Assembly (NCBI RefSeq): GCF_027594505.1
Contig: NZ_CP115149.1
Span: 1,530,503-1,594,502 of the forward strand
Source: Tepidiforma flava
Lineage (GTDB): Bacteria; Chloroflexota; Dehalococcoidia; Tepidiformales; Tepidiformaceae
DNA length: 64,000 nucleotides
Direction: 5' to 3'
Shown here: in pieces, positions 16,784-28,960 of the stretch
Numbering within the stretch: position 1 is the first letter of the stretch
How the letters are laid out: every line of letters begins with the position of its first letter
Notes under the pieces: generated by a model
The model's input: the letters and a program-made list of their open reading frames with translations, nothing else
Told to the model about the DNA's origin: nothing
Databases searched by the model: none
Program-made: the position numbers and the translations under genes

Positions 16784-18070
16784 GTGCCCACCATCCGCGA
16801 CCTCGCCGACCGCCTCTGGAACGGCGACATCACCACCGCCGACTACCACCCCGTCGGCTGGCGCCACCCCGAAGCCGAAGAGATCGCCGAGGGCGTGCTC
16901 TTCTACAAAGGCATCGCCAGCGCCAACACCATCGATACCGGCGACGGCCTCGTCATGCTCGATACCGGCGCCGTCAACGATACCCGCCCCCTCCACGAGC
17001 AGGTGCGCCGCTGGCGCCCCGAAGCGCCCCTCCGCGCCGCCGTCTTCTCCCACCACCACGTCGACCACATCTTCGGCGTCGGCCCCTTCGAACAGGAGGC
17101 CGACGAACGCCGCTGGCCCCGGCCCATCGTCTACGGCCACGAACTGCTCGAATCGCACTTCGCCCGCTACCAGCGCACCCTCGGCTGGAACACCGCCATC
17201 AACCGCCGCCAGTTCGCCATCGATGCCCCCGGCTTCAGCTGGCCCCGGCAGTACCGCCTGCCCGATGTCACCTACACCCGGCGGCTCACCTTCCGCCAGG
17301 GCAGCCTCACCTTCGAACTCCGCCACACCCGCGGCGAGACCGAAGACGCCACCTGGACCTGGATTCCCGAGCGCAAACTCCTCGCCCCCGGCGACCTCTT
17401 CATCTGGGCCGTCCCCAACGCCGGCAACCCCCAGAAAGTCCAGCGCTACTGCGGCGAATGGGCCGCCGGCCTCCGCGAAATGGCCAGCCTCGGCGCCGAA
17501 CTCCTCCTCCCCGGCCACGGCCTCCCCATTTTCGGCGCCGACCGCATCCGCCAGGCCCTCCTCGATGCCGCCGAACTCCTCGAATCCATCGAGGACCAGG
17601 TCCTCGCCCTCATGAACACCGGCTGCACCCTCGACCGCATCCTCCACGAAGTTCAGGTGCCCGCCCGCCTCCTCGACAAGCCCTACCTCCGGCCCGTCTA
17701 CGACGACCCCCAGTTCCTCGTCCGCAACGTCTGGCGGCTCTACGGCGGCTGGTACGACGGCGAGCCCGATAACCTCCTGCCCGCCCCCCGCGCCGAGCAG
17801 GCCCGCGAATGGGTCGCCCTCGCCGGCGGCCTCGACCGCGTCCTCGAGCGTGCCGCCGCCCTCCGTGCCGAGGGCAACCTCCGCCTCGCCTGCCACCTCG
17901 TCGAATACGCCGTCATCGCCGAACCCGGCTCGCGCGCCGCCCACGACCTCCGCGCCGAGATCTACGCCGCCCGCGCCGCGCTCCAGCCCTCCTCCATGGC
18001 CCGCAACATCCTCAACCACGCCGCTCTCGCCTCCCGCCAGGGCAAACGCGACCTCGCCGGCGACTTTTAG
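16784..18070 (+). CDS. alkylsulfatase-like MBL-fold hydrolase
   Basis: This 428-residue protein has an MBL domain and a C-terminal helical region. The metal motif is SHHHVDH near residue 90, with a HTRGETEDATW segment and a LAPGDLF site as in BDS1/SdsA-type alkylsulfatases. The segment after about residue 290 resembles their dimerisation domain, but the C-terminal sterol-carrier-like domain of the full enzymes (about 650 residues) is missing. It may hydrolyse alkyl sulfates or a related ester. The GTG at 16784 follows GGAGACGCCCC, and a TACACT box lies about 30 bp upstream. The stop codon touches repeat island 2. Confidence 0.75.
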   Translation: MPTIRDLADRLWNGDITTADYHPVGWRHPEAEEIAEGVLFYKGIASANTIDTGDGLVMLDTGAVNDTRPLHEQVRRWRPEAPLRAAVFSHHHVDHIFGVGPFEQEADERRWPRPIVYGHELLESHFARYQRTLGWNTAINRRQFAIDAPGFSWPRQYRLPDVTYTRRLTFRQGSLTFELRHTRGETEDATWTWIPERKLLAPGDLFIWAVPNAGNPQKVQRYCGEWAAGLREMASLGAELLLPGHGLPIFGADRIRQALLDAAELLESIEDQVLALMNTGCTLDRILHEVQVPARLLDKPYLRPVYDDPQFLVRNVWRLYGGWYDGEPDNLLPAPRAEQAREWVALAGGLDRVLERAAALRAEGNLRLACHLVEYAVIAEPGSRAAHDLRAEIYAARAALQPSSMARNILNHAALASRQGKRDLAGDF

Positions 18071-19065
18071 GGAGAAAGGGAGAAAGGGAGAAAGGGAGAA
18101 AGGGAGAAAGGGAGAAAGGGAGAAAGGGAGAAAGGGAGAAAGGGAGAAAGGGAGAAAGGGAGAACTCTCCTCCCGAGGCCCCTCCCAACTCCCAACTCCC
18201 ATCTCCCAACTCCTCCGCCGCGGGGCTCCGTCCCCGCGGAGGGCCGGGAGGCCCGCCCGAACGTTCGCATCCACCGGTTCCCGCCGCCTCCCAACTCCGA
18301 ACTCCCACCTCCCAACTCCTCCGCCGCGGGGCTCCGTCCCCGCGGAGGGCCGGCGAGGCCCGCCCGAACGTTCGCATCCACCGGTTCCCGCCGACTCGCA
18401 ACTCCCAACTCCCGTCTCCCAACTCCCAACTCCTCCGCCGCGGGGCTCCGTCCCCGCGGAGGGCCGGCGAGGCCCGCCCGCACGCTCGCATCCACCGGTT
18501 CCCGCCGACTCCCAACTCCCAACTCCGAACTCCCAGCTCCCAACTCCCATCTCCCAACTCCTCCGCCGCGGGGCTCCGTCCCCGCGGAGGGCCGGTGAGG
18601 CCCACCCGGGAGTTCGCGTCCGCGCGCCCTCCCGCCTCCCGGTTCCCGTCTCCCGTCTCCCGGAACATCCGTTGGGCGCATGGCGCCCCGCGGGGACGGA
18701 GCCCCGCGGCTACGGTTGGAGGTTGGAGGTTGGAGGTTATCCTCCCTCCCAGCTCCCAGCTCCCAGCTCCCAGCTCCCAGCTCCCAGCTCCCAGCTCCCA
18801 GCTCCCACCTCCCAGCTCCCGGCTCCCGGCTCCCGACTCCCGACTCCCGACTCCCAGCTCCCGACTCCCAGCTCCCAACTCCCTCCTCCCCACTCCCGCC
18901 TCCACCGCCGGCGCGGAGCGGCGGCATCCCGCGGCGCCGCCGGCGAAGGCGGCCAGCCATCCCCCGCGGCGCCAGCCGCGCCACCGCGCCGGCGAAGCCG
19001 GCCAGCCATCCCCCGCGGCGCCAGCCGCGCCACCGCGCTCCCACCGCCCTCCCGCGCCACCCACC
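18071..19065. repeat. composite repeat island 2 (largest)
   Basis: About 1 kb with no gene separates the MBL and mutM genes. On the plus strand the order is: 18071-18164, nearly 12 copies of the octamer GGGAGAAA; 18165-18650, CTCCCAA-type heptamers alternating with four copies of palindromic element D (starting near 18215, 18321, 18435 and 18563); 18666-18714, the 49-bp inverted element D'; 18714-18740, GGAGGTT heptamers; 18741-18903, CTCCCAG/CTCCCGA heptamers; 18904-19048, GC-rich palindromic element E in two partial copies. The last four blocks recur in the same order in islands 4 and 5. Confidence 0.92.
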
Positions 19066-19068
19066 GCC

Positions 19069-19074
19069 TATACT
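19069..19074 (+). promoter_or_regulatory. -10 box, leaderless start of mutM
   Basis: TATACT is followed by six bases and the GTG start at 19081. It lies about 20 bases after the end of repeat element E, so any -35 contacts would fall in or next to the repeat. Confidence 0.5.
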
Positions 19075-19080
19075 CCCTCC

Positions 19081-19908
19081 GTGCCCGAAATCCCCGAGCT
19101 CGAGGCCATCCGCGGCTTCTTCCAGGAGCAGCTCCCCGGCCGCGCCATCGCCGCCGCCGCCGTCCGCATCCCCGTCGTCTTCCGCACCCCCGCCAGCGAA
19201 TTCCGCGAAACGCTCCCCGGCGACCGCTTCTCCGGCTTCCGCCGCCGCGGCAAATTCCTCCTCCTCGACCTCGCCTCCGGCCGCGTCCTCGCCGTCAATC
19301 CCATGCTCACCGGCCGCTTCCAGTACGTCGACCCCGCCGCCAAACCCCCGGCGAAGACCTGCCTCATCCTCGACATCGACGGCGGCCGCTCCCTCCGCTA
19401 CGCCGACGAGCGCCTCATGGGGAAGCTCTACCTCCTCCCCGGCGACCGCCTCGGGGCCATCCCCGGCTGGACCGACGGCGGTCCCGACCTCCTCGACCCC
19501 GCCCTTACGGAGGAAGGCTGGCTCCAGCGCATCGCGAAGTACCGCGGCGGCATCAAGAACATCCTCGTCAACGCCGCCTTCGTCCAGGGCATCGGCAACG
19601 CCTACAGCGACGAAATCCTCTGGGAAGCCCGCATCAACCCCTACACCCCGCGCACGAAGCTCAGCGAGGACGACCTCCGCCGTCTCTTCCGCGCCGCCCG
19701 CGACGTCATGGCCTGGGCCGAACCGCTCGCCCGCGCCGCCATGGTGAAGGACGGCACCCTCGACTACGAAGAGCGGCGCGACTTCCTCCGCGTCCACCGG
19801 CGCGGCGGCCAGCCCTGCCCCCGCTGCGGCACGCCGATCACCGAAATCACCGCCAACCAGCGCGTCACCAGCTTCTGCCGCCAGTGTCAGCCCGAACTGC
19901 CGGCCTGA
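19081..19908 (+). CDS. mutM: formamidopyrimidine-DNA glycosylase (Fpg/Nei family)
   Basis: This 275-residue base-excision repair enzyme removes oxidised bases and cuts the abasic site. After removal of the initiator residue the N-terminus is PEIPELE, giving the catalytic Pro and Glu. The RRRGKFLLL turn supplies the conserved Lys, and the H2TH region reads KNILVNAAFVQGIGNAYSDEILW. A C-terminal zinc finger is intact (CPRCG ... CRQC). Details of the insert loop make Fpg versus a Nei-like enzyme uncertain. The GTG start is six bases after TATACT. Its 3' end overlaps that of the large sensor kinase by 22 bp, tail to tail. Confidence 0.88.
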   Translation: MPEIPELEAIRGFFQEQLPGRAIAAAAVRIPVVFRTPASEFRETLPGDRFSGFRRRGKFLLLDLASGRVLAVNPMLTGRFQYVDPAAKPPAKTCLILDIDGGRSLRYADERLMGKLYLLPGDRLGAIPGWTDGGPDLLDPALTEEGWLQRIAKYRGGIKNILVNAAFVQGIGNAYSDEILWEARINPYTPRTKLSEDDLRRLFRAARDVMAWAEPLARAAMVKDGTLDYEERRDFLRVHRRGGQPCPRCGTPITEITANQRVTSFCRQCQPELPA

Positions 19909-22900
19909 CCGGCCCCGCCGGCTGACTCCTCCGCCCCGGTCACCCGCTCCCGGATGACCCGCGCGATATCCTCCACCCCGTACGGCTTCGCCAGCAGCTC
20001 CAGCCCGTACCGCTCCACCAGCGCCGTCACCCCCGCGTCCGTCGTCGCCCCCGTCGCGATGATTGCCCGCGGGATGAGGTGCGGCATGCGCGCCTCGAGC
20101 CCTTCGAATACCGCGTCGGCCGTCTCGGTCGCCAGCCGGTAGTCGCAGAGGATGACGTCCGGGTCGAACTCCGCCGCCAGCTCGAGCGCCCGCCCGCTGT
20201 TCTCCGCATCGAGGCACCGGTGGCCGAGGCTCTCCACCAGCCGCCGGCACACCTTCCGCAGGCTCGGCTCATCGTCGATGACCAGCACCGTCGCCTGCCG
20301 CGCGGGGGGCGGCGCCTCGACCGCCGCATCCGCAGCGCCGCCCTCCGACGGCGCCGGCAGCGTTATCACGAACGTCGTCCCCGTGCCCGGGGTCGAAATG
20401 CAGTCGATCGTCCCCCGGTGCGACTGGATGATCGAGTAGCTGAGCGGCAGGCCGAGGCCCGTCCCCACACCCTGCTTCGTCGTGAAAAACGGCTCGAAAA
20501 TCCGCGCCCGCGTTGCCTCGTCCATCCCGGTCCCCGTATCGCTCACCGCGATGCGCACGTTTCCCGCTTCGTCCGTCTCGCCCTCGATCACGATCCGCCG
20601 CACCGGCCGCCCCTCCAGCGCGTGCTCCGCATTCGTGACGAGATTCAGCAGCACCTGCGTCAGCTGGTGCTCGTTGCCCCACGCCGCGAGCCCGTCCGCC
20701 AGCCGGACCTGCACCTCGATGCCGGCCTGCTGCCAGAGCCGCTCCCGCAGCCGCTGCACATGGCCTACCACATCCGCGACCGCCACCCGGCCGTGCTCCG
20801 CCGCCCCCGGCCGCGCGATGAACAGCAGGTCGCGCACGATGTTCCGCGCCCGCAGCGCCTCCTTCTGGATGATGGCCAGCTCCTCGCCCATCTGGCCCGT
20901 CGTATCGGAGAGCGCCAGCACCTCCGCGAACCCGAGGATCGCCGTGAGCGGGTTGTTCAGCTCGTGCGCCACCCCGCCGATGAGCTCGCCGAGCGCCGCC
21001 AGCCGCGACGCCCGCTCCATCCGCGCCCGGTTCGCCGCCTCCTCCGCCTCCCGCCGCACCTCGTCCGTCACGTCCGCCGCCACCGTCAGCACCCGCATCT
21101 GCGGGTCGTCCAGCGGCACGAACTCGTAGTCGAAATGCCGGCTCTCGCCGTCGATCGCCAGTTCCGCCCGGCCGCGGGCGCCGACGCCGTCTTCGAACGC
21201 CCGCCGGAACGGCTCCCGCAGCCCCTCCGGCAGCCGCGCTGCGATGGCATCGATGTCGTTCGCCGTCTTGTCCGGGTCGATCGCCTGCACGATCTCCTGC
21301 CCCAGCGCGTTCGCGAAGATCGGCCGCCCCGTCCGGTCCGAGAGGATGACCGCCTCCGAGAGCGACCGCAGGATGAGGCCGTAGACGGCCGCCTGCCGCT
21401 CCCGCTCCTGTGTCGCGATGCTCGCTTCGATCGCCGGGCCGACCACCTGCGCCACCCGCCGGATGAGCGCGAGGTCGCGCTCCGAGAAGGCGAAGCCCGG
21501 CTCCCGGCTCGCCACCAGCAGCAGCCCCGTCGCCGCGCCCGCCGAATACGTCGCCGTGTAGCTCACCGAGGTGAATCCGAAATTCGGCCCGAAGTGCGAC
21601 GCTGGCACCGCCTCGCCCGGCACCACCACCTGCCCCACCGACCGCGCTTCGAACTCGTGCGGCAGCATCGGCAGCCGCAGCTCCCCGCCGAGCAGGTGCG
21701 GCCACGCCAGCTCGTCGCCGTCGAACCGCCCGTACGCCGCGAACGCCTTCGGCACGAACCGCTCCAGCGCCGGCGTAATCCCCAGCAGGATTGCTGTCGG
21801 CCCCTGCGCCGTCGCCGCCGTTGCGCTCACCTCCGCGAGAATCCGCTGCTCCTCGGCCTGCCGGTCCCGTTCCGCCTGCGCCGTCACCGTCTCCACCACC
21901 GGCCCCACCACCGCCGTGACCCGCCGCAGCAGCGCCAGCTCCCGCGGTCCGAACCGGAACGCCGGGTCGCGGCTCGCCACCATCAGCATCCCCGAGACGC
22001 CCCCGGCCGCGTGGTACGAAGTCAGCGCATACGCGCACAGCCCGAGTTCGCCGTAGAACGTCGCCCGGTACGGCTCCAGGTTGCCTACCCCCTGCCCCGC
22101 CGCCAGCGCCTCCCGTCCGACCGGCGAAAACCGCATCACGAGCTCGTCCCGCCCGATGACCCGCCGGCCCTCCGGGTCCGTGACCTGGTAGGCAATCGCA
22201 TCGCCCCGGACGAAGCCGTACATCGCATACGCCCCCGGCACGCGCTCCCCGAGGACCGCCGGCAGGTGGTTGACCACCTCGCCGACCGTCCGAGCGGCGG
22301 CGGCAGCAGCGGCCACGCTCGCGACGATCCGCTCGTCTTCGGCCTCCTCCAGCCGGCGGCGCCGCTCGCGGAAGTTCGCCATCGCCGGCCCGGCGATGTC
22401 TGCCACCAGCCGGCAGAGGCGCAGGTCGCGCTCCGTGAACGCGTAGGCCTCGTCGGCCGTACCGACGATGAGCACCCCGATGACTTCGCCCTCCGAGGCG
22501 GCCGCCGTCGTCACCCACCGCCGCAGGCCCCCGGCCGCAATCCGCTCGCGGTTCTCCGGCAGGATGTCCGGCGAGTCGAGCGTATCGACCGCCTGGCGGG
22601 CCTCGATCGCTCGCCGGACGCCCGGCCCGAGCGGCCACGCCTCCCCGCTCGCGGCATCCCGCAGCTGCTCGCCCTCGACGTAGAAGAAGCCCGCCATCGC
22701 CCGCGGCACCAGCCGCCGGAACGTTGCGGCCAGCCCTTCGACGAACTCCCGGTCGGTCGTCGCCCGCGCCGCCGCCGCGGCCGCATCGGCGAGGAACCGC
22801 TGCTCCTCCGCCTCCTCGATGCGGCGCCGCCGCTCGCGCAGGTTCGCCATCGCCGGCCCGAGGATGTCCGCCGCCAGCTTGATCACGCGCAGGTGGCGCG

Positions 22901-25900
22901 CCGTGAACCGGAACTCCGGGTCGCTCGTGCCCAGCCAGAGCACCCCCATGCTCACCCCGCCCGGGGCGAGCCGCGCGTTCACGCTCCGCACGATGCCGAG
23001 TTCCCGCTGCCGCTGCCGCGATGCCTCCGTCACCGCCTCCGCCGGGGTCCGCACCACCGGCTCCAGCGCGTGCGCATCCGCATAGTCGAATCCCACCGGC
23101 AGCCGCACCTCCGGGTTCACGGAACTCACCAGGCCGCCGGTCTCGTCGAAAATCAGCAGGTCCAGCCGCGCCGCCGGCACCAGCCAGCGGAACTCCCGCC
23201 CGAGCTGCTGCACCAGCTCCTGCTCCGTCGCCGCCCGGGTCGCCACCGCGGCGATGTCCGCGAGGAAGCGCTGCTCCTCCGCATCCTCGCGCGCCCGCTG
23301 GGCAGCGCGCGCATTCTCCATCGCCGGCCCGACGATCTGCGCGATGAGCCGCAGCAGCCGCAGCTCGCGCTCGCCGAACGTATAGTCCGGGTCCCGAGAG
23401 GCCACCACGAGATAGCCGATCGTCCGCCCGCCGGCCCGCGCGGCCGTCGTCGAAGCTGCTCGCGCCCCCATCGTCCAGAGCGGGCTCCGCGGGTCGAGGT
23501 CCCCCGGCAGCCGGTCCGCGTGGGTCTGGCCCTCCTCCTCCGCCAGCCGGGCGTACTGGTCCGGCGCCGTCTCGAACACCGTCCCGTCGCCAAGCGGGTA
23601 GAGAATGCGGTCGCCCTCCTTCAGGCCAAACGCCACGATCGGCAGCGGCACCAGCCGCCGCATCGGCCGCTGCAGCGCCACCACCATCGCGTCCGGGCTG
23701 CCTTCCCTTGCCGCCACCGCTGCGATCTCCGCCAGCAGCCGCTGGTCCTCCGCGTCCTGCCGCTCCCGCTCAGCCGCCCGCGCGTTCGCCATCGCCGGCC
23801 CGACGATGTCGGCGATGAGCCGCGCCAGCCGCAGCTCCCGCTCCCCCGGCGCGAACTCCGGGTCGCGCGAGCCCACGACCAGCAGGCCGACCGGCACCCC
23901 GCCCGAGCTCGCCGCCGCGATGATGTGCGCCTGGATGCCGAGCGAGTCCAGCTCCGGCAGCGCCCCCGCCGGGGATGTCCGCCGGTCCGCCGGCGGCACC
24001 ACCGCCGCACCGTCGTCCAGCGCCTGCCGGAAGTTCGGCCCGAGCTGGACCGCCGTCGCGCCCCCGGCCCGGTTCGGGAACTGCACCTGCGCCCCGTCGA
24101 GGAAGCCGAACGCCACGTACGGCTGCGGCACGAACCGCCGCGCCACAGCCTGCAGGGCGTGCGCGATCGCCAGCGGGTCCAGCTCCCGCGCGACGGCCGC
24201 TGCCGCCGCTGCCACCACCGCCTGGTCCTCCGCCTCCTGCCGCTCCCGCTCCACCGCCATCGCGTTCGCCATCGCCGGCCCCACGATGTCGGCGATGAGC
24301 CGCGCCAGCCGGGCCTCCCGCTCCCCCGGTGTGAACGCCGCGTCCCGCGTGCCGAGGAGCAGTAGCCCGGTGATTTCGCCGCGCGAATACGCCGGCGCGA
24401 CGACATGCGCCCGCAGCCCGAACCGTTCGAGCTGCGCCGCGGCCTCCGGCGTCCCGGCCGGCCCGCCGGCGAGGACCAGCGTCTCGCCCGCCAGCGCCCG
24501 CGCGAACGCCGGCCCGATCGGCAGCCGCACCTCGCCCAGCGGCCCGCCGGGGAACCAGATGTGGTCCTCCCGCGTGAACCCGAACGCCGCGAACGGCTTC
24601 GGCAGGAACGCCCGCGCGACCTGCTGCAGCCCCCGCATGATGCCGTACGCGTCGACCTCCCGCGCGACCGCCGCGGCCGCCTCGCCGATGATCCGCTGCT
24701 CCTCCGCCTCCCGCCGCTGCCGCTCCTCCGCCAGCAGGTTCGCCAGCGCGGGCCCCACGATATCGGCGATGAGCCGCACCAGCCGCGCCTCCCGCTCCCC
24801 CGCCCGGAACGCCGCGTCCCGGCTGAACACCAGCAGCAGCCCCGCCGTCTCGCCGCCCGCCCGCGCCGGCGCCACGATGCGCGTCGCAATCCCCGAGTTC
24901 TCCATCTCCGACCGCGAGACCTCGAACAGCACCGGCGCATCCGGCCCCAGCACGGCCGGCTCCCCGGTCTCGAGCGCCCGCGCCGTCGCGGGGCCGATCG
25001 GGATGCGCACCGTGTCGTCCCGCTCCCGCACCACCTCCATCTCGCTGCCCCGCAGGAACGCGATCCGCACGAGCGGCCCGGGGATGAACCCGCCGACCGC
25101 CTCCGTCAGCGCATCCGCCAGCCGCCGCGGCTCCTGCTCCCGCGCGACCGCCGCCGCAGCCTGCGCGATGATCCGCTGCTCCTCCGCCTCCGCCGCGCTC
25201 TGCTCCACCCGCCGCCGGTTCGCAATCGCATACGCCAGCAGCGCCCCCGCCAGCTCCGCGAACCGCAGCTCGTCGGCATCGAACGGCTGCGTCCCCCGCC
25301 TGCCGATCGTCAGCACCCCCTCCGGCTCGCCGCCCGCCTCCAGCAGCACGCACGCGATCCGCCCGATGCCCCCCTCGAACAGCTCCGCCGGCACGACCGG
25401 CTCATGCGCCGCCTCTTCGGCGGTCAGCTGCGCGCTCCGGACCCCGGCCTCCAGCATCCGGCGGACCCGGCCGTCGTCCACGAACACCGGCGCCGCGCCC
25501 GCGGGATCGCTCGACCGCAGCAGCCGGTAGCGCTCCCCCAGCGGCTCCCGCGCCGCGATGGACACGAGGTCGATGCCCTCCACCGCCAGCAGCAGCCGGC
25601 TCAGCCGCGCGAAATGCGCCTCGATCGGTGCCCCGTCGTTCACGAACAGCGCCAGCTCGTTCAGGATGTGCTCCTGCTGCGTCCGCCGCTGCTGCCGCAG
25701 CTGCGCCCGGTGGTTCGCGGCGGCCTGCCCCACGAGCGCCGCCACCAGCTGGATGAACTCCAGCTCCCGCTCGTCGAACCGTTCGTTCTCCAGCCGGCCG
25801 ATCGTCAGCAGTCCCTCCGGCCCCTCGTTCGACGTCATCACCGCCGTCGCTGCCCGACGGTAGCCCGCCCGCATCAGCGCCTGCGGCGTCCGGTTCGGGT

Positions 25901-28172
25901 TCTTCCGCGTCTGGTACTGCACGATGCCGCCCGCCTGCGCCGTCTCCCCGATGCTCGCCTCGCGGAAGTTCGGCTCCGCATCGATGTCCATCGGCTTCGA
26001 CCGGATCGGCCGGTACTCGCCGGTCAGCGGGTCGCGGTACGTGATCGACAGCCAGTCGAACCCCACGCCCTGCAGCAGGATGCGCGAGAGCGCCTCGAAC
26101 TGTTCCCGCAGGTCCTGCCCGCCCTGCAGCAGCGCCGTCAGTTCGGAAAGCGCCTGCCGGCGCACCGCCTCGCCGACCCGCTCGCGCACCTTCCGGTGGT
26201 TCGCCAGCGCCTGCCCGAGCAGCGCCGCCACGGCCTCCAGGTGCCCTATCGCCTCGGGGTCCAGCGGCCGGTCGGTCAGCCGCGACATCAGCAGCAGCCC
26301 CTCCTCCTCCCCCTCGTGCCGCAGCGCCACCGCCGCCACGCGCTTCACCCCCGCGGCCCGGTTCCGCTCCGCGATTGGGCCTTCGAACTCCTCGATGGGG
26401 GCCTCGATGACGCGGGTTTCCCGCAGCCGCTCCAGCAGCGCCCCGAAGCTCTCCCGCGGCGCCGTATACCCCGGCCGCGTCGACCGCCGCCGCAGGCTGT
26501 CCACCACGCGCAGGTGCCGCGGCCCGGCCGTCACCCAGAGCGCGAGGCCGTCGAAATCGACGGTCGCCTGCAGCCGCGTCGAGAGCGCCTCGAAGAAGGC
26601 CTCCGGGCCCTCGCCCCGGTTCAGCAGCAGCGCCAGCTCGTTCAGGATGCGCGCCCGCTCGTAGGCGCGCGCCGTATCGAGCAGCCGCCGCCGGTTTCCC
26701 ACGCCCACCGCCAGCAGCCGGCACAGGGTCGCCACGAACGCCCGGTCCGGCGCGTCGAACGGCTCGTCCGCGGTCCGCGCAAGGTGCAGGGTTCCGACCA
26801 GCTCCCCGCCGTCCTGCAGCAGCGCCGCCAGCCCGCGCCGGTAGCCGGCAGCCGCCACCATCCGGCCGAACTCCGTCAGCGATTCGGCCGTCCGGTACTG
26901 GTAGATGCCGTCGGCATCGAACGGCAGCCGGATGCTCGGCGCCGTCGCCCGCGGGAACGTCATCCCCGCCCGCAGCCGCCCCTCCGGCCGCGTCCCGACC
27001 ACGCGGAGCTGCTCGCCATCCGGTTCGGCCGCCGCCAGCGCGACCCAGTCGTACCGCAGCGCCTGCGGCAGCACCGCGCACAGGTCATCGAACACCTGCT
27101 CCAGCGGCGTGCCGACCGAGAGGTGCGCCGCCAGCTCGTTCAGCGCCCGCGCCCGCGAAGCCTCCACCGCCTCCCGCCGCCGCCGCGCATCGGCGGTCAG
27201 CGCCTGCGACAGCAGCGCCCGCAGCAGCCCGATGAAGCCGAGCTCCTGCTCGTCGAACCGCCGGTGCGCCCGCCGCGCCACGATGAGCAGCCCGGCCGTC
27301 TCGCTCCCCTCGCGCAGGATGCCGACGGCCGCCCGGCCGTACCCGGCCAGCGCCAGCCCGTCATCCGGGCTCGCCCCCGCCTCCGGCCGGAACTGCAGGA
27401 CATCGCCGCGCCGGCCCAGCGCTTCGATATACGCGTTCCCCTCGTCCGTCGGCGGCAGGCCGGCGTGCACGCCCGGCGGGTGCTCCCCGGCGAGCGCGAA
27501 GCCGCCCGGCCCGCGCAGGACGAGCCCCGTGTAGTCGACCGGGAGCGCCTCCGGCAGCAGCCCGGCCAGCGAAGAAAACAGCGTCTCGAACGATTCCCCG
27601 CGCGCGAGGGCCGCGCCCAGCTCCGCGGCAGCCCGGGCGCGCGCCGCCGCGGCGTTTGCGGCCCGCAGCTCCCGCTCCCGCGCGGCTGCCGCGCCCAGCA
27701 GCGCCGCCGCCTCGCGGAGGAGCGCGCACGCCCGCTCTCCCGGCAGCTCCGCCGTCCGCCAGCCGGCGACCAGCAGCCCCACCGGCTCGCCCCGCTCGAA
27801 CAGCGGGCTCACCCAGCCGGAGCCGTACCCCAGCCGCCCCAGCGAAACCGCCGCCGGGTGGTCCGCCGCCTCACCCGCGGCGAACGCAGCCCCCGCCGCC
27901 AGCTGCCCCGCGAGGTCCAGCCCCACGCTCTCCGCCGGCAGCACCCGGCCGATGACCGCCGGCTCGTGCTCCACCGGCCACGACCCGGCCACCCGCACGG
28001 CCTCGCCGCTTCCCTCGCTCACGAACAGCGTCGCGAGGGCGCACCCGGCCGCCTCGCCCAGCACCGCCGCAAACCGCGCGAACCGCTCCGGGAGCGGCCC
28101 GCCGCCCGCCGCGATCACCGCGAGCTCCTGCACGACCGCCCGGTCGCGGGATGTGAGGCCTCGGCCCGTCAT
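19887..28172 (-). CDS. giant multi-GAF hybrid sensor histidine kinase
   Basis: This is a 2,761-residue soluble sensor with no membrane helix. I count about 14 GAF-like domains over residues 1-2260, roughly 160 residues each. The first six are linked by LNELA-type helices and the last eight by very similar AEEQRI-type helices and LIADIVGPAMAN blocks. Then come a PAS domain (about 2262-2370), HisKA with phosphoacceptor H2403 in VAHELNNPL, HATPase_c (NLVTNAEHAL, DTGTGM, GTGLGLPLSY) and a receiver domain with acceptor D2677 (ILCDYRL) and a LLAKPYG lysine. It should autophosphorylate and pass phosphate to its own receiver. The GAF ligands are unknown. It is divergent from the M23 peptidase. Confidence 0.88.
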   Translation of the reverse strand: MTGRGLTSRDRAVVQELAVIAAGGGPLPERFARFAAVLGEAAGCALATLFVSEGSGEAVRVAGSWPVEHEPAVIGRVLPAESVGLDLAGQLAAGAAFAAGEAADHPAAVSLGRLGYGSGWVSPLFERGEPVGLLVAGWRTAELPGERACALLREAAALLGAAAARERELRAANAAAARARAAAELGAALARGESFETLFSSLAGLLPEALPVDYTGLVLRGPGGFALAGEHPPGVHAGLPPTDEGNAYIEALGRRGDVLQFRPEAGASPDDGLALAGYGRAAVGILREGSETAGLLIVARRAHRRFDEQELGFIGLLRALLSQALTADARRRREAVEASRARALNELAAHLSVGTPLEQVFDDLCAVLPQALRYDWVALAAAEPDGEQLRVVGTRPEGRLRAGMTFPRATAPSIRLPFDADGIYQYRTAESLTEFGRMVAAAGYRRGLAALLQDGGELVGTLHLARTADEPFDAPDRAFVATLCRLLAVGVGNRRRLLDTARAYERARILNELALLLNRGEGPEAFFEALSTRLQATVDFDGLALWVTAGPRHLRVVDSLRRRSTRPGYTAPRESFGALLERLRETRVIEAPIEEFEGPIAERNRAAGVKRVAAVALRHEGEEEGLLLMSRLTDRPLDPEAIGHLEAVAALLGQALANHRKVRERVGEAVRRQALSELTALLQGGQDLREQFEALSRILLQGVGFDWLSITYRDPLTGEYRPIRSKPMDIDAEPNFREASIGETAQAGGIVQYQTRKNPNRTPQALMRAGYRRAATAVMTSNEGPEGLLTIGRLENERFDERELEFIQLVAALVGQAAANHRAQLRQQRRTQQEHILNELALFVNDGAPIEAHFARLSRLLLAVEGIDLVSIAAREPLGERYRLLRSSDPAGAAPVFVDDGRVRRMLEAGVRSAQLTAEEAAHEPVVPAELFEGGIGRIACVLLEAGGEPEGVLTIGRRGTQPFDADELRFAELAGALLAYAIANRRRVEQSAAEAEEQRIIAQAAAAVAREQEPRRLADALTEAVGGFIPGPLVRIAFLRGSEMEVVRERDDTVRIPIGPATARALETGEPAVLGPDAPVLFEVSRSEMENSGIATRIVAPARAGGETAGLLLVFSRDAAFRAGEREARLVRLIADIVGPALANLLAEERQRREAEEQRIIGEAAAAVAREVDAYGIMRGLQQVARAFLPKPFAAFGFTREDHIWFPGGPLGEVRLPIGPAFARALAGETLVLAGGPAGTPEAAAQLERFGLRAHVVAPAYSRGEITGLLLLGTRDAAFTPGEREARLARLIADIVGPAMANAMAVERERQEAEDQAVVAAAAAAVARELDPLAIAHALQAVARRFVPQPYVAFGFLDGAQVQFPNRAGGATAVQLGPNFRQALDDGAAVVPPADRRTSPAGALPELDSLGIQAHIIAAASSGGVPVGLLVVGSRDPEFAPGERELRLARLIADIVGPAMANARAAERERQDAEDQRLLAEIAAVAAREGSPDAMVVALQRPMRRLVPLPIVAFGLKEGDRILYPLGDGTVFETAPDQYARLAEEEGQTHADRLPGDLDPRSPLWTMGARAASTTAARAGGRTIGYLVVASRDPDYTFGERELRLLRLIAQIVGPAMENARAAQRAREDAEEQRFLADIAAVATRAATEQELVQQLGREFRWLVPAARLDLLIFDETGGLVSSVNPEVRLPVGFDYADAHALEPVVRTPAEAVTEASRQRQRELGIVRSVNARLAPGGVSMGVLWLGTSDPEFRFTARHLRVIKLAADILGPAMANLRERRRRIEEAEEQRFLADAAAAAARATTDREFVEGLAATFRRLVPRAMAGFFYVEGEQLRDAASGEAWPLGPGVRRAIEARQAVDTLDSPDILPENRERIAAGGLRRWVTTAAASEGEVIGVLIVGTADEAYAFTERDLRLCRLVADIAGPAMANFRERRRRLEEAEDERIVASVAAAAAAARTVGEVVNHLPAVLGERVPGAYAMYGFVRGDAIAYQVTDPEGRRVIGRDELVMRFSPVGREALAAGQGVGNLEPYRATFYGELGLCAYALTSYHAAGGVSGMLMVASRDPAFRFGPRELALLRRVTAVVGPVVETVTAQAERDRQAEEQRILAEVSATAATAQGPTAILLGITPALERFVPKAFAAYGRFDGDELAWPHLLGGELRLPMLPHEFEARSVGQVVVPGEAVPASHFGPNFGFTSVSYTATYSAGAATGLLLVASREPGFAFSERDLALIRRVAQVVGPAIEASIATQERERQAAVYGLILRSLSEAVILSDRTGRPIFANALGQEIVQAIDPDKTANDIDAIAARLPEGLREPFRRAFEDGVGARGRAELAIDGESRHFDYEFVPLDDPQMRVLTVAADVTDEVRREAEEAANRARMERASRLAALGELIGGVAHELNNPLTAILGFAEVLALSDTTGQMGEELAIIQKEALRARNIVRDLLFIARPGAAEHGRVAVADVVGHVQRLRERLWQQAGIEVQVRLADGLAAWGNEHQLTQVLLNLVTNAEHALEGRPVRRIVIEGETDEAGNVRIAVSDTGTGMDEATRARIFEPFFTTKQGVGTGLGLPLSYSIIQSHRGTIDCISTPGTGTTFVITLPAPSEGGAADAAVEAPPPARQATVLVIDDEPSLRKVCRRLVESLGHRCLDAENSGRALELAAEFDPDVILCDYRLATETADAVFEGLEARMPHLIPRAIIATGATTDAGVTALVERYGLELLAKPYGVEDIARVIRERVTGAEESAGGAGQAGSSG

Positions 28173-28306
28173 CGCGTGTTCGCCCTCTCCCCCATCCCTG
28201 AAGTGTCGGATGCTCCCATGCCCGGGCCTATGAGGGAATTCCCCAATCAGACCGCAGTGTCAGCGGCCCCTTCGCGGTCCGCCTCCCGGCCGCCAGCCTT
28301 CCCGCC

Positions 28307-28960
28307 ATGGACACGATCACCTTCGGGCCAGCCCTCATCGACCGCGCCAACTATATCGGATTGCCGATGACCGGGACCATCACGGCAACATTCGGCAGCC
28401 GCACCATCCCCGAGCACGCCGGCGGCCACACCGGCGCCGACATCGCCGCCCCCGCCGGCACCCCGGTCCGCGCGCCGGCCCCCGGCGTCGTGCTCGAAAC
28501 CCGCAGCGGCGACCCCGTCTTCGGCAACGCCGTCGAACTCCGGCACCCCGGCGGCTGGCGGACCCTCTACGCCCACCTCAGCCGCGTCGACGTCCTGCCC
28601 GGCCAGCCCGTCCGTGCCGGCGACGGCCTCGGCCTCTGCGGCTCCACCGGCCTCAGCACCGGCCCGCACCTCCACTGGGGCCTCGCCCGCGGCCACAGCC
28701 CGGCCGTCCGCGGCCCCGGCCTCGCCGACCCCCTCGCCGTCGTCTCGCCGGCCCCGCTGCTCCTCGACGACGCCCGCCTCCTCCGCGCCGCCGCCGCGGC
28801 CATCTACGCCGGGCTCCAGGCCGCCGGCGCCCTCTTCGCCAGCCGCGCCGAAGATGACCTCGCCATCTACCCGCCCGGCTCGCCCGCCCGCCTCATCCTC
28901 GACATCCAGCGCGCCGCCAACCCGTTCCTCGCGCGCTGGCTCGCCCGGGAAGCGGAATGA
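28307..28960 (+). CDS. M23 family metallopeptidase (LytM domain)
   Basis: This 217-residue protein has a LytM-type zinc peptidase core: the HxxxD pair in GGHTGADIAAPAG (about residue 45), LYAHL, and the HxH motif in GPHLHWG (about residue 125). An Ala-rich helical tail follows from about residue 150. Enzymes of this family cut peptidoglycan cross-bridges, but no signal peptide is visible here, which is unusual for a wall hydrolase. The start is uncertain: the ATG at 28307 lacks a ribosome site, and a later ATG at 28367 would still include the whole domain. It diverges from the giant kinase across a 134-bp gap. Confidence 0.78.
   Translation: MDTITFGPALIDRANYIGLPMTGTITATFGSRTIPEHAGGHTGADIAAPAGTPVRAPAPGVVLETRSGDPVFGNAVELRHPGGWRTLYAHLSRVDVLPGQPVRAGDGLGLCGSTGLSTGPHLHWGLARGHSPAVRGPGLADPLAVVSPAPLLLDDARLLRAAAAAIYAGLQAAGALFASRAEDDLAIYPPGSPARLILDIQRAANPFLARWLAREAE

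Follow-up and report, generated by a model that had tools for sequence, protein, structure and literature searches.

The kinase described here carries 14 GAF domains in a row, joined by GAF-GAF junctions of equal length, and was found in a 64,000-nucleotide stretch of the Tepidiforma flava genome (hereafter "the window"). We propose, with moderate confidence, that it is a soluble hybrid histidine kinase and that a long helical spine, locked in register, forms the core of its dimer. This reading is favored by the constancy of the junctions, by the continuous helix in structural models, and by earlier work on the linkers of YF1 and PadC.

Gene and genomic neighborhood

The host, Tepidiforma (Chloroflexota), is a hot-spring bacterium, and its genome (G000) is available as one 2.77-Mb contig. 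The kinase gene, with the architecture (GAF)14-PAS-HisKA-HATPase-REC, occupies positions 19887-28172 of the window as one open frame of 2,761 aa on the minus strand (ATG at 28172, stop at 19887). The extent and length of the frame agree with those in a previous reading of the DNA alone (the "sequence-only reading"), which gave no strand. The convergent neighbor (17809-19908, plus strand) is a frame whose last ~275 codons encode a formamidopyrimidine-DNA glycosylase (Fpg/MutM); it overlaps the kinase gene by 22 bp at the stop ends (19887-19908), and the Fpg gene is kept beside the GAF array even in distant genera. The divergent neighbor is a gene for an M23 peptidase (28307-28960, plus strand). 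Two antisense open frames cover the kinase gene on the plus strand, at 20079-24365 (1,428 aa) and 24405-28370 (1,321 aa). The latter has no match in Pfam, and both are probably shadow frames of G+C-rich coding DNA.

Domain composition of the array

Residues 6-2256 are tiled by 14 consecutive units of 155-166 aa each, which form two sets, six type-A units (u1-u6) followed by eight type-B units (u7-u14). The sequence-only reading had proposed about 14 GAFs in sets of six and eight. The number is upheld by Pfam, by the similarity between units and by profiles of the A and B types, with four folds modelled, and the division by a tree of 116 units of the family, in which A and B each form one clade (SH-aLRT 100). 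In the whole protein Pfam detects nine GAF, five GAF_2 and two GAF_3 stretches, as well as PAS_4, HisKA, HATPase_c and Response_reg. When scanned singly, all 14 units match a Pfam GAF model at E<0.1, ten of them above a curated cut-off; the domain search thus does not yield far fewer GAF folds than had been claimed. The four units below the cut-off (u2, u11, u13 and u14) are called GAF by their resemblance to neighboring units (30-42% identity) and by the A and B profiles. These profiles were built from the window protein's own units, so that their scores on that protein are not independent; in full-length orthologs from the genus outside the profile-building set they recover 12 to 14 units.

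All units are encoded on the minus strand. In the A set, the Pfam GAF model matches u1 (residues 6-171, window 27660-28157; 26.1 bits, over the cut-off), u3 (337-500, 26673-27164; 30.3 bits), u4 (501-665, 26178-26672; 27.8 bits) and u5 (666-828, 25689-26177; 26.6 bits), the last of which also has a modelled GAF fold. Unit u2 (172-336, 27165-27659) reaches 16 bits, below the cut-off, and is assigned on the basis of its 28-30% similarity to u3-u5, while u6 (829-991, 25200-25688) matches GAF_3 with 27.4 bits and is further identified by a modelled fold and by the tree. In the B set, the GAF model and the tree identify u7 (992-1151, 24720-25199; 29.3 bits) and u8 (1152-1310, 24243-24719; 27.3 bits), the GAF model and modelled folds identify u9 (1311-1470, 23763-24242; 25.3 bits) and u10 (1471-1627, 23292-23762; 28.3 bits), and GAF_2 identifies u12 (1784-1939, 22356-22823; 32.5 bits). 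The match of u11 (1628-1783, 22824-23291) to GAF_2 remains below the cut-off (19.1 bits), and this unit is 42% identical to u12. Unit u13 (1940-2101, 21870-22355) reaches 14.5 bits with GAF, below the cut-off, and its best Pfam match is 2CSK_N (18.1 bits, likewise below its cut-off); it is 29-37% identical to most other B units. Finally, u14 (2102-2256, 21405-21869) scores 16.8 bits with GAF, again below the cut-off, and is 37% identical to u13.

We modelled four of the 14 units with AlphaFold2, which returned two GAF folds in u9-u10 (pLDDT 87.9) and two in u5-u6 (82.3). According to Foldseek, the nearest solved folds are the tandem GAFs of PDE2A/PDE5A (TM 0.78 to 3ibj_A) and the GAF-PHY region of phytochromes.

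PAS domain, kinase core and receiver

The array is followed, on the same minus-strand frame, by a PAS domain (residues 2268-2373, window 21054-21371; PAS_4, 28.6 bits), a HisKA/DHp domain (2394-2456, 20805-20993; 54 bits) with the phospho-acceptor His2403 in the motif AHELNNPL, a HATPase_c domain (2499-2608, 20349-20678; 82 bits) with N2514, D2545, F2562 and GTGLGL at 2570, and a receiver (2629-2740, 19953-20288; 38.3 bits) with D2633, D2677, T2707 and K2729. All four exceed their Pfam cut-offs, the H, N, G1, F and G2 boxes of the kinase are complete, and so are the DD, D, T and K positions of the receiver, which bears out the PAS domain, complete kinase core and receiver of the sequence-only reading. 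A pattern search finds most of the kinase and receiver motifs in the orthologs too. The claim that the protein has no membrane part also stands: the top 19-residue hydropathy is 1.75, i.e. no membrane helix is evident.

The kinase core with HELNNPL is common to the window kinase and to histidine kinases of the AtoS/ZraS/NtrB type, whose input domains are unrelated to it. The closest PDB sequence match is ZraS and the best NCBIfam match is AtoS, with 205 bits against a cut-off of 646; the listed NCBIfam matches are all far below their cut-offs, and none of the curated equivalog cut-offs of AtoS, VirA-like, CckA and EspA/EspC is reached.

Our search for partners revealed no Pfam receiver adjoining the kinase gene; of the ~20 receivers in the genome, the nearest other one is ~37 kb away. 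The sole Pfam Hpt match in the genome, where divergent HPts could escape Pfam, is in a 734-aa CheA-like frame with a HATPase. Because the only HPt found is CheA-like, the attached receiver may be a local regulator or a phosphate sink, and not a step in a relay. The CheA-like frame (Hpt and HATPase) adjoins two receiver matches (G000:C1:2311245-2315177); flagellar motility has been reported for Tepidiforma, and the CheA-like frame and receivers fit it. The same genome contains a second multi-GAF kinase gene (G000:C1 about 1440000-1446165; L051:5569-11166, minus strand), in which a 1,866-residue frame combines at least five GAFs with PAS and HisKA. The HATPase and receiver are in another frame (301 aa), and the gene appears frameshifted in the assembly.

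Spacing of the junctions

We defined a junction as the distance between two landmarks, one in the final helix of a unit and the other in the initial helix of its successor. In 17 sequences of the kinase's family it amounts to 16 residues in 104 of 105 cases, and the lone exception (23 residues, in G008) is longer by one heptad (+7), whereas within units the same landmarks are 135-153 residues apart, i.e. they vary by up to 18 residues. In the window protein all seven B-B junctions measure 18 residues from GPA to the following AExQ. A sliding control shows other helical core segments to be nearly free of indels as well, variation being confined to the loops and the lid. The linkers are therefore not alone in their constancy, and helix, linker and helix act as one rigid segment. 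In the AlphaFold2 models a continuous helix runs between the GAFs, with 46 residues in the B pair and 43 in the A pair. Linker hydropathy lacks a clean peak at 3.5-3.6, while peaks at 3.4 and 3.8 exceed the 95% level of shuffled sequences. A classical coiled coil thus falls short of proof, and packing alone could explain why a continuous helix of fixed length is maintained.

A comparison with 37 other GAF frames of Chloroflexota, two of which come from the window genome or its family, yielded 172 junctions with nine values in all: 16 (122 cases), 23 (23), 20 (14), 41 (7), 34 (2), and 9, 12, 29 and 58 (one each). Relative to 16, the spacing is mostly +0, +4, +7 or +25, more rarely -7, -4, +18 or +42; the junction of 29 (+13) is a misfit and comes from L070, whose remaining junctions are also odd. 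Many of these junctions share ancestry and the proteins are homologous, so that the figures describe a pattern and do not amount to a significance test. In eight arrays with 9-13 GAFs on an unrelated kinase core (L057-L062, L064 and L065) junctions of 16, 20, 23, 34, 41 and 58 occur, and their order along the array is largely conserved.

Evolution of the array

Comparison of copy number among orthologs within the same taxonomic family gave 2 to 14 GAFs. Counted as A plus B units, they comprise 6+8 (G002), 5+7 (G003 and G004), 6+6 (G001), 7+3 (G012), 5+5 (G024), 4+4 (G008), 5+2 (G016), 5+1 (G022), 3+2 (G020), 2+1 (G011, G018 and G023) and 1+1 (G006). The array of G001 is on two contigs, the pieces of which overlap at query ~1758-1803, so that no unit is lost between them; the ortholog of G010 is cut by its contig. 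Within the genus, u8 is present only in the window genome and G002, the two closest genomes, G001 lacks u7, and G003 and G004 lack u6, a pattern which implies that units have been both gained and lost. The Fpg gene adjoins orthologs with 3, 10, 12 and 14 GAFs, while on the other side of the array six loci, from the genus and two additional genera, have the M23 peptidase gene. These neighbors, common to orthologs of different length, point to one ancestral locus, at which the array grew and shrank in place. A B-type array occurs in 20 of 38 genomes of the family. It is absent from all nine genomes of the GTDB genus g13, and about half of the family genomes outside g13 have a B-type array or a short form.

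The sequence-only reading had suggested that the eight later GAFs expanded by tandem duplication, and we concur that the array grew by duplication: neighboring units are the most alike, orthologs range from 2 to 14 units, and u8 is restricted to the two closest genomes. Its description of the linkers and blocks of the B units as nearly identical goes too far; they are merely conserved. Units are 22-31% identical within A and 23-51% within B, the best DNA copies are 74-76% identical over 300 nt, and the block LIADIVGPA(L/M)AN is exact in three units only. These values indicate that the duplications took place long ago rather than recently.

Role of the individual units

The nearest named relative is an independent MAG, Tepidiforma sp. 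KatS3mg064 (L009; Chloroflexota, Dehalococcoidia), whose kinase is 88% identical over the whole length, with no indel across the 2,761 codons. In this comparison dN/dS is 0.08-0.34 in every GAF unit, i.e. all 14 are under purifying selection, and in the tree the individual units of the genus retain their identity by position. Units u2, u10 and u13-u14 are the best conserved. The lid segments are 15-20% identical between units and 61-68% between orthologs. Such a pattern, varied between units and kept between orthologs, fits the expectation for unit-specific pockets; the lid is, however, no better conserved across orthologs than strands b1-b3, so that ligand binding by each unit stays putative. 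No unit could be matched to a ligand, and the integration of many small-molecule signals in the cytosol, suggested in the sequence-only reading, is likewise putative.

These observations bear on the main alternative to a chain of sensors, namely that most of the GAFs are ligand-free spacers, forming an extended rod that serves to position the kinase or to stabilize the dimer at high temperature, so that sensing would be left to one unit or very few (perhaps u13-u14 and the PAS domain). Such a role would agree with the range of 2-14 units among relatives with the same output module, as if the exact number mattered little, and with the spine helices being the best-conserved part between B units (53-56%, compared with 12-22% for b1-b3 and lid). 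No known ligand motif is present either: the NKFDE motif (NKXnFX3DE) of cNMP-binding, PDE-type GAFs is absent as a pattern from the kinase, and six of the eight B units have no Cys. The tandem GAFs of PDE2A/PDE5A resemble the window kinase in that two GAFs share one long helix, but they differ in their phosphodiesterase output and in this motif, and are only 10-13% identical in sequence to the window GAFs. We nevertheless consider spacers rather unlikely, because selection acts on every unit, because lids that differ between units persist among orthologs, and because units retain their identity within the genus.

Bilin attachment in the GAFs of cyanobacteriochromes and phytochromes requires a Cys, which nine of the 14 units lack, and the seven Cys of the remaining five seem to lie outside the lid helices. 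Bilin is therefore very unlikely as a ligand (His, the proximal residue in heme GAFs of the DosS/DosT type, is present in most units), and we give hardly any credence to a multi-color light sensor of the cyanobacteriochrome/phytochrome kind, even though the kinase is a cytosolic multi-GAF protein, phytochromes are among its nearest folds, and Tepidiforma often occurs together with phototrophic mats (PMC10284905). The model for such a sensor would be PtxD, a cyanobacteriochrome from Nostoc punctiforme, which also has many GAFs in a row, though half as many; at least six of them bind bilin, and its output is phototaxis (PMC5812497).

Although repeats are a known assembly hazard, the chance that the array is an assembly artefact or the gene a decaying pseudogene is negligible: the genome is on a single contig, the independent MAG has the same 2,761 codons without an indel, which removes the suspicion of a collapse or expansion raised in the sequence-only reading, DNA copies at most 76% identical over 300 nt are too diverged for collapse, and all catalytic motifs are intact.

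Other long GAF arrays

The sequence-only reading implied that kinases with many GAFs are rare, which does not hold: other Chloroflexota have kinases with 13, 11, 9 and 7 GAFs. In a sample of 200 such genomes, 13-GAF kinases are found in at least six among the matches listed. Examples include L060 (2797 aa, 13 GAFs, in a single contig of 5,258,541 bp), L057 (13 GAFs), L061 (11) and L063 (7). As in the window kinase, the array is combined with PAS, a HisKA-type domain (HisKA_3 in L063) and HATPase, and the junctions are quantized. However, these arrays mix junctions of 16, 20, 23 and 41 residues, their GAFs are much closer to the Pfam consensus, and no C-terminal receiver was found in L057, L058 and L060-L063. 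In a quick tree the kinase cores of the 13-GAF proteins L057-L060 fall into a clade separate from the window kinase (support 100), so that two or more separate origins of long GAF arrays are probable.

The window kinase hence belongs to a known but little-studied kind, from which it stands out by its length series and its uniform junctions. We do not claim 14 GAFs as a record, since the survey extended to 200 other genomes of Chloroflexota and to the best matches listed from them. In the literature we found no paper naming a GAF array longer than the seven of PtxD (PMC5812497), a search that did not extend to subscription journals and leaves absence unproven.

Proposed mechanism and implications

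Turning to the register-locked spine, we infer a dimer, a coiled coil, a direction of the signal and ligand binding by some of the units, as follows. Each GAF would join the spine at both ends via helices fused to those of its neighbors, giving a helix of ~45 residues per junction. A ligand-bound unit that changes state would cause rotation or asymmetry down the spine towards the PAS and HisKA domains, where the signal would shift the balance between kinase and phosphatase activity; since all GAF-GAF junctions in the protein are equal in length, any unit might be able to pass on its signal. Phosphate would then move from His2403 to Asp2677 of the attached receiver, or to an unlinked response regulator. 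Gain or loss of whole units would preserve the register and make the length of the array evolvable, from 2 to 14 GAFs at one locus.

The idea of a spine is not new: coiled coils have been proposed before as the connections between PAS and GAF domains that follow one another at regular intervals, also as a route of signalling (PMC6798134), and in YF1 the effect of linker length is heptad-dependent (PMC6798134). The spacing figures for GAF arrays come from the present analysis. In YF1 and in phytochrome-linked diguanylate cyclases such as PadC, linker lengths are set by helical register, with a periodicity of seven residues (PMC6798134, PMC9587094); there the rule concerns one linker between sensor and effector, whereas in the window kinase it applies to 13 successive junctions between sensors. 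Tentatively, it might extend to a general helical-register rule for GAF arrays, by which sensor modules could be freely added or removed as each duplication conserves the phase of the junction. The resulting rod would integrate signals in series, with as many as 14 sensors voting on a single kinase and with a length tuned by lineage.

Sequence evidence for helical-register coupling between sensor modules is seldom as direct as this near-perfect constancy of the junctions amid freely varying domains. Moreover, the natural series of 2, 3, 5, 6, 7, 8, 10, 12 and 14 GAFs on one orthologous kinase makes it testable how far a signal reaches along stacked sensors, and whether the sensors add, gate or merely space.
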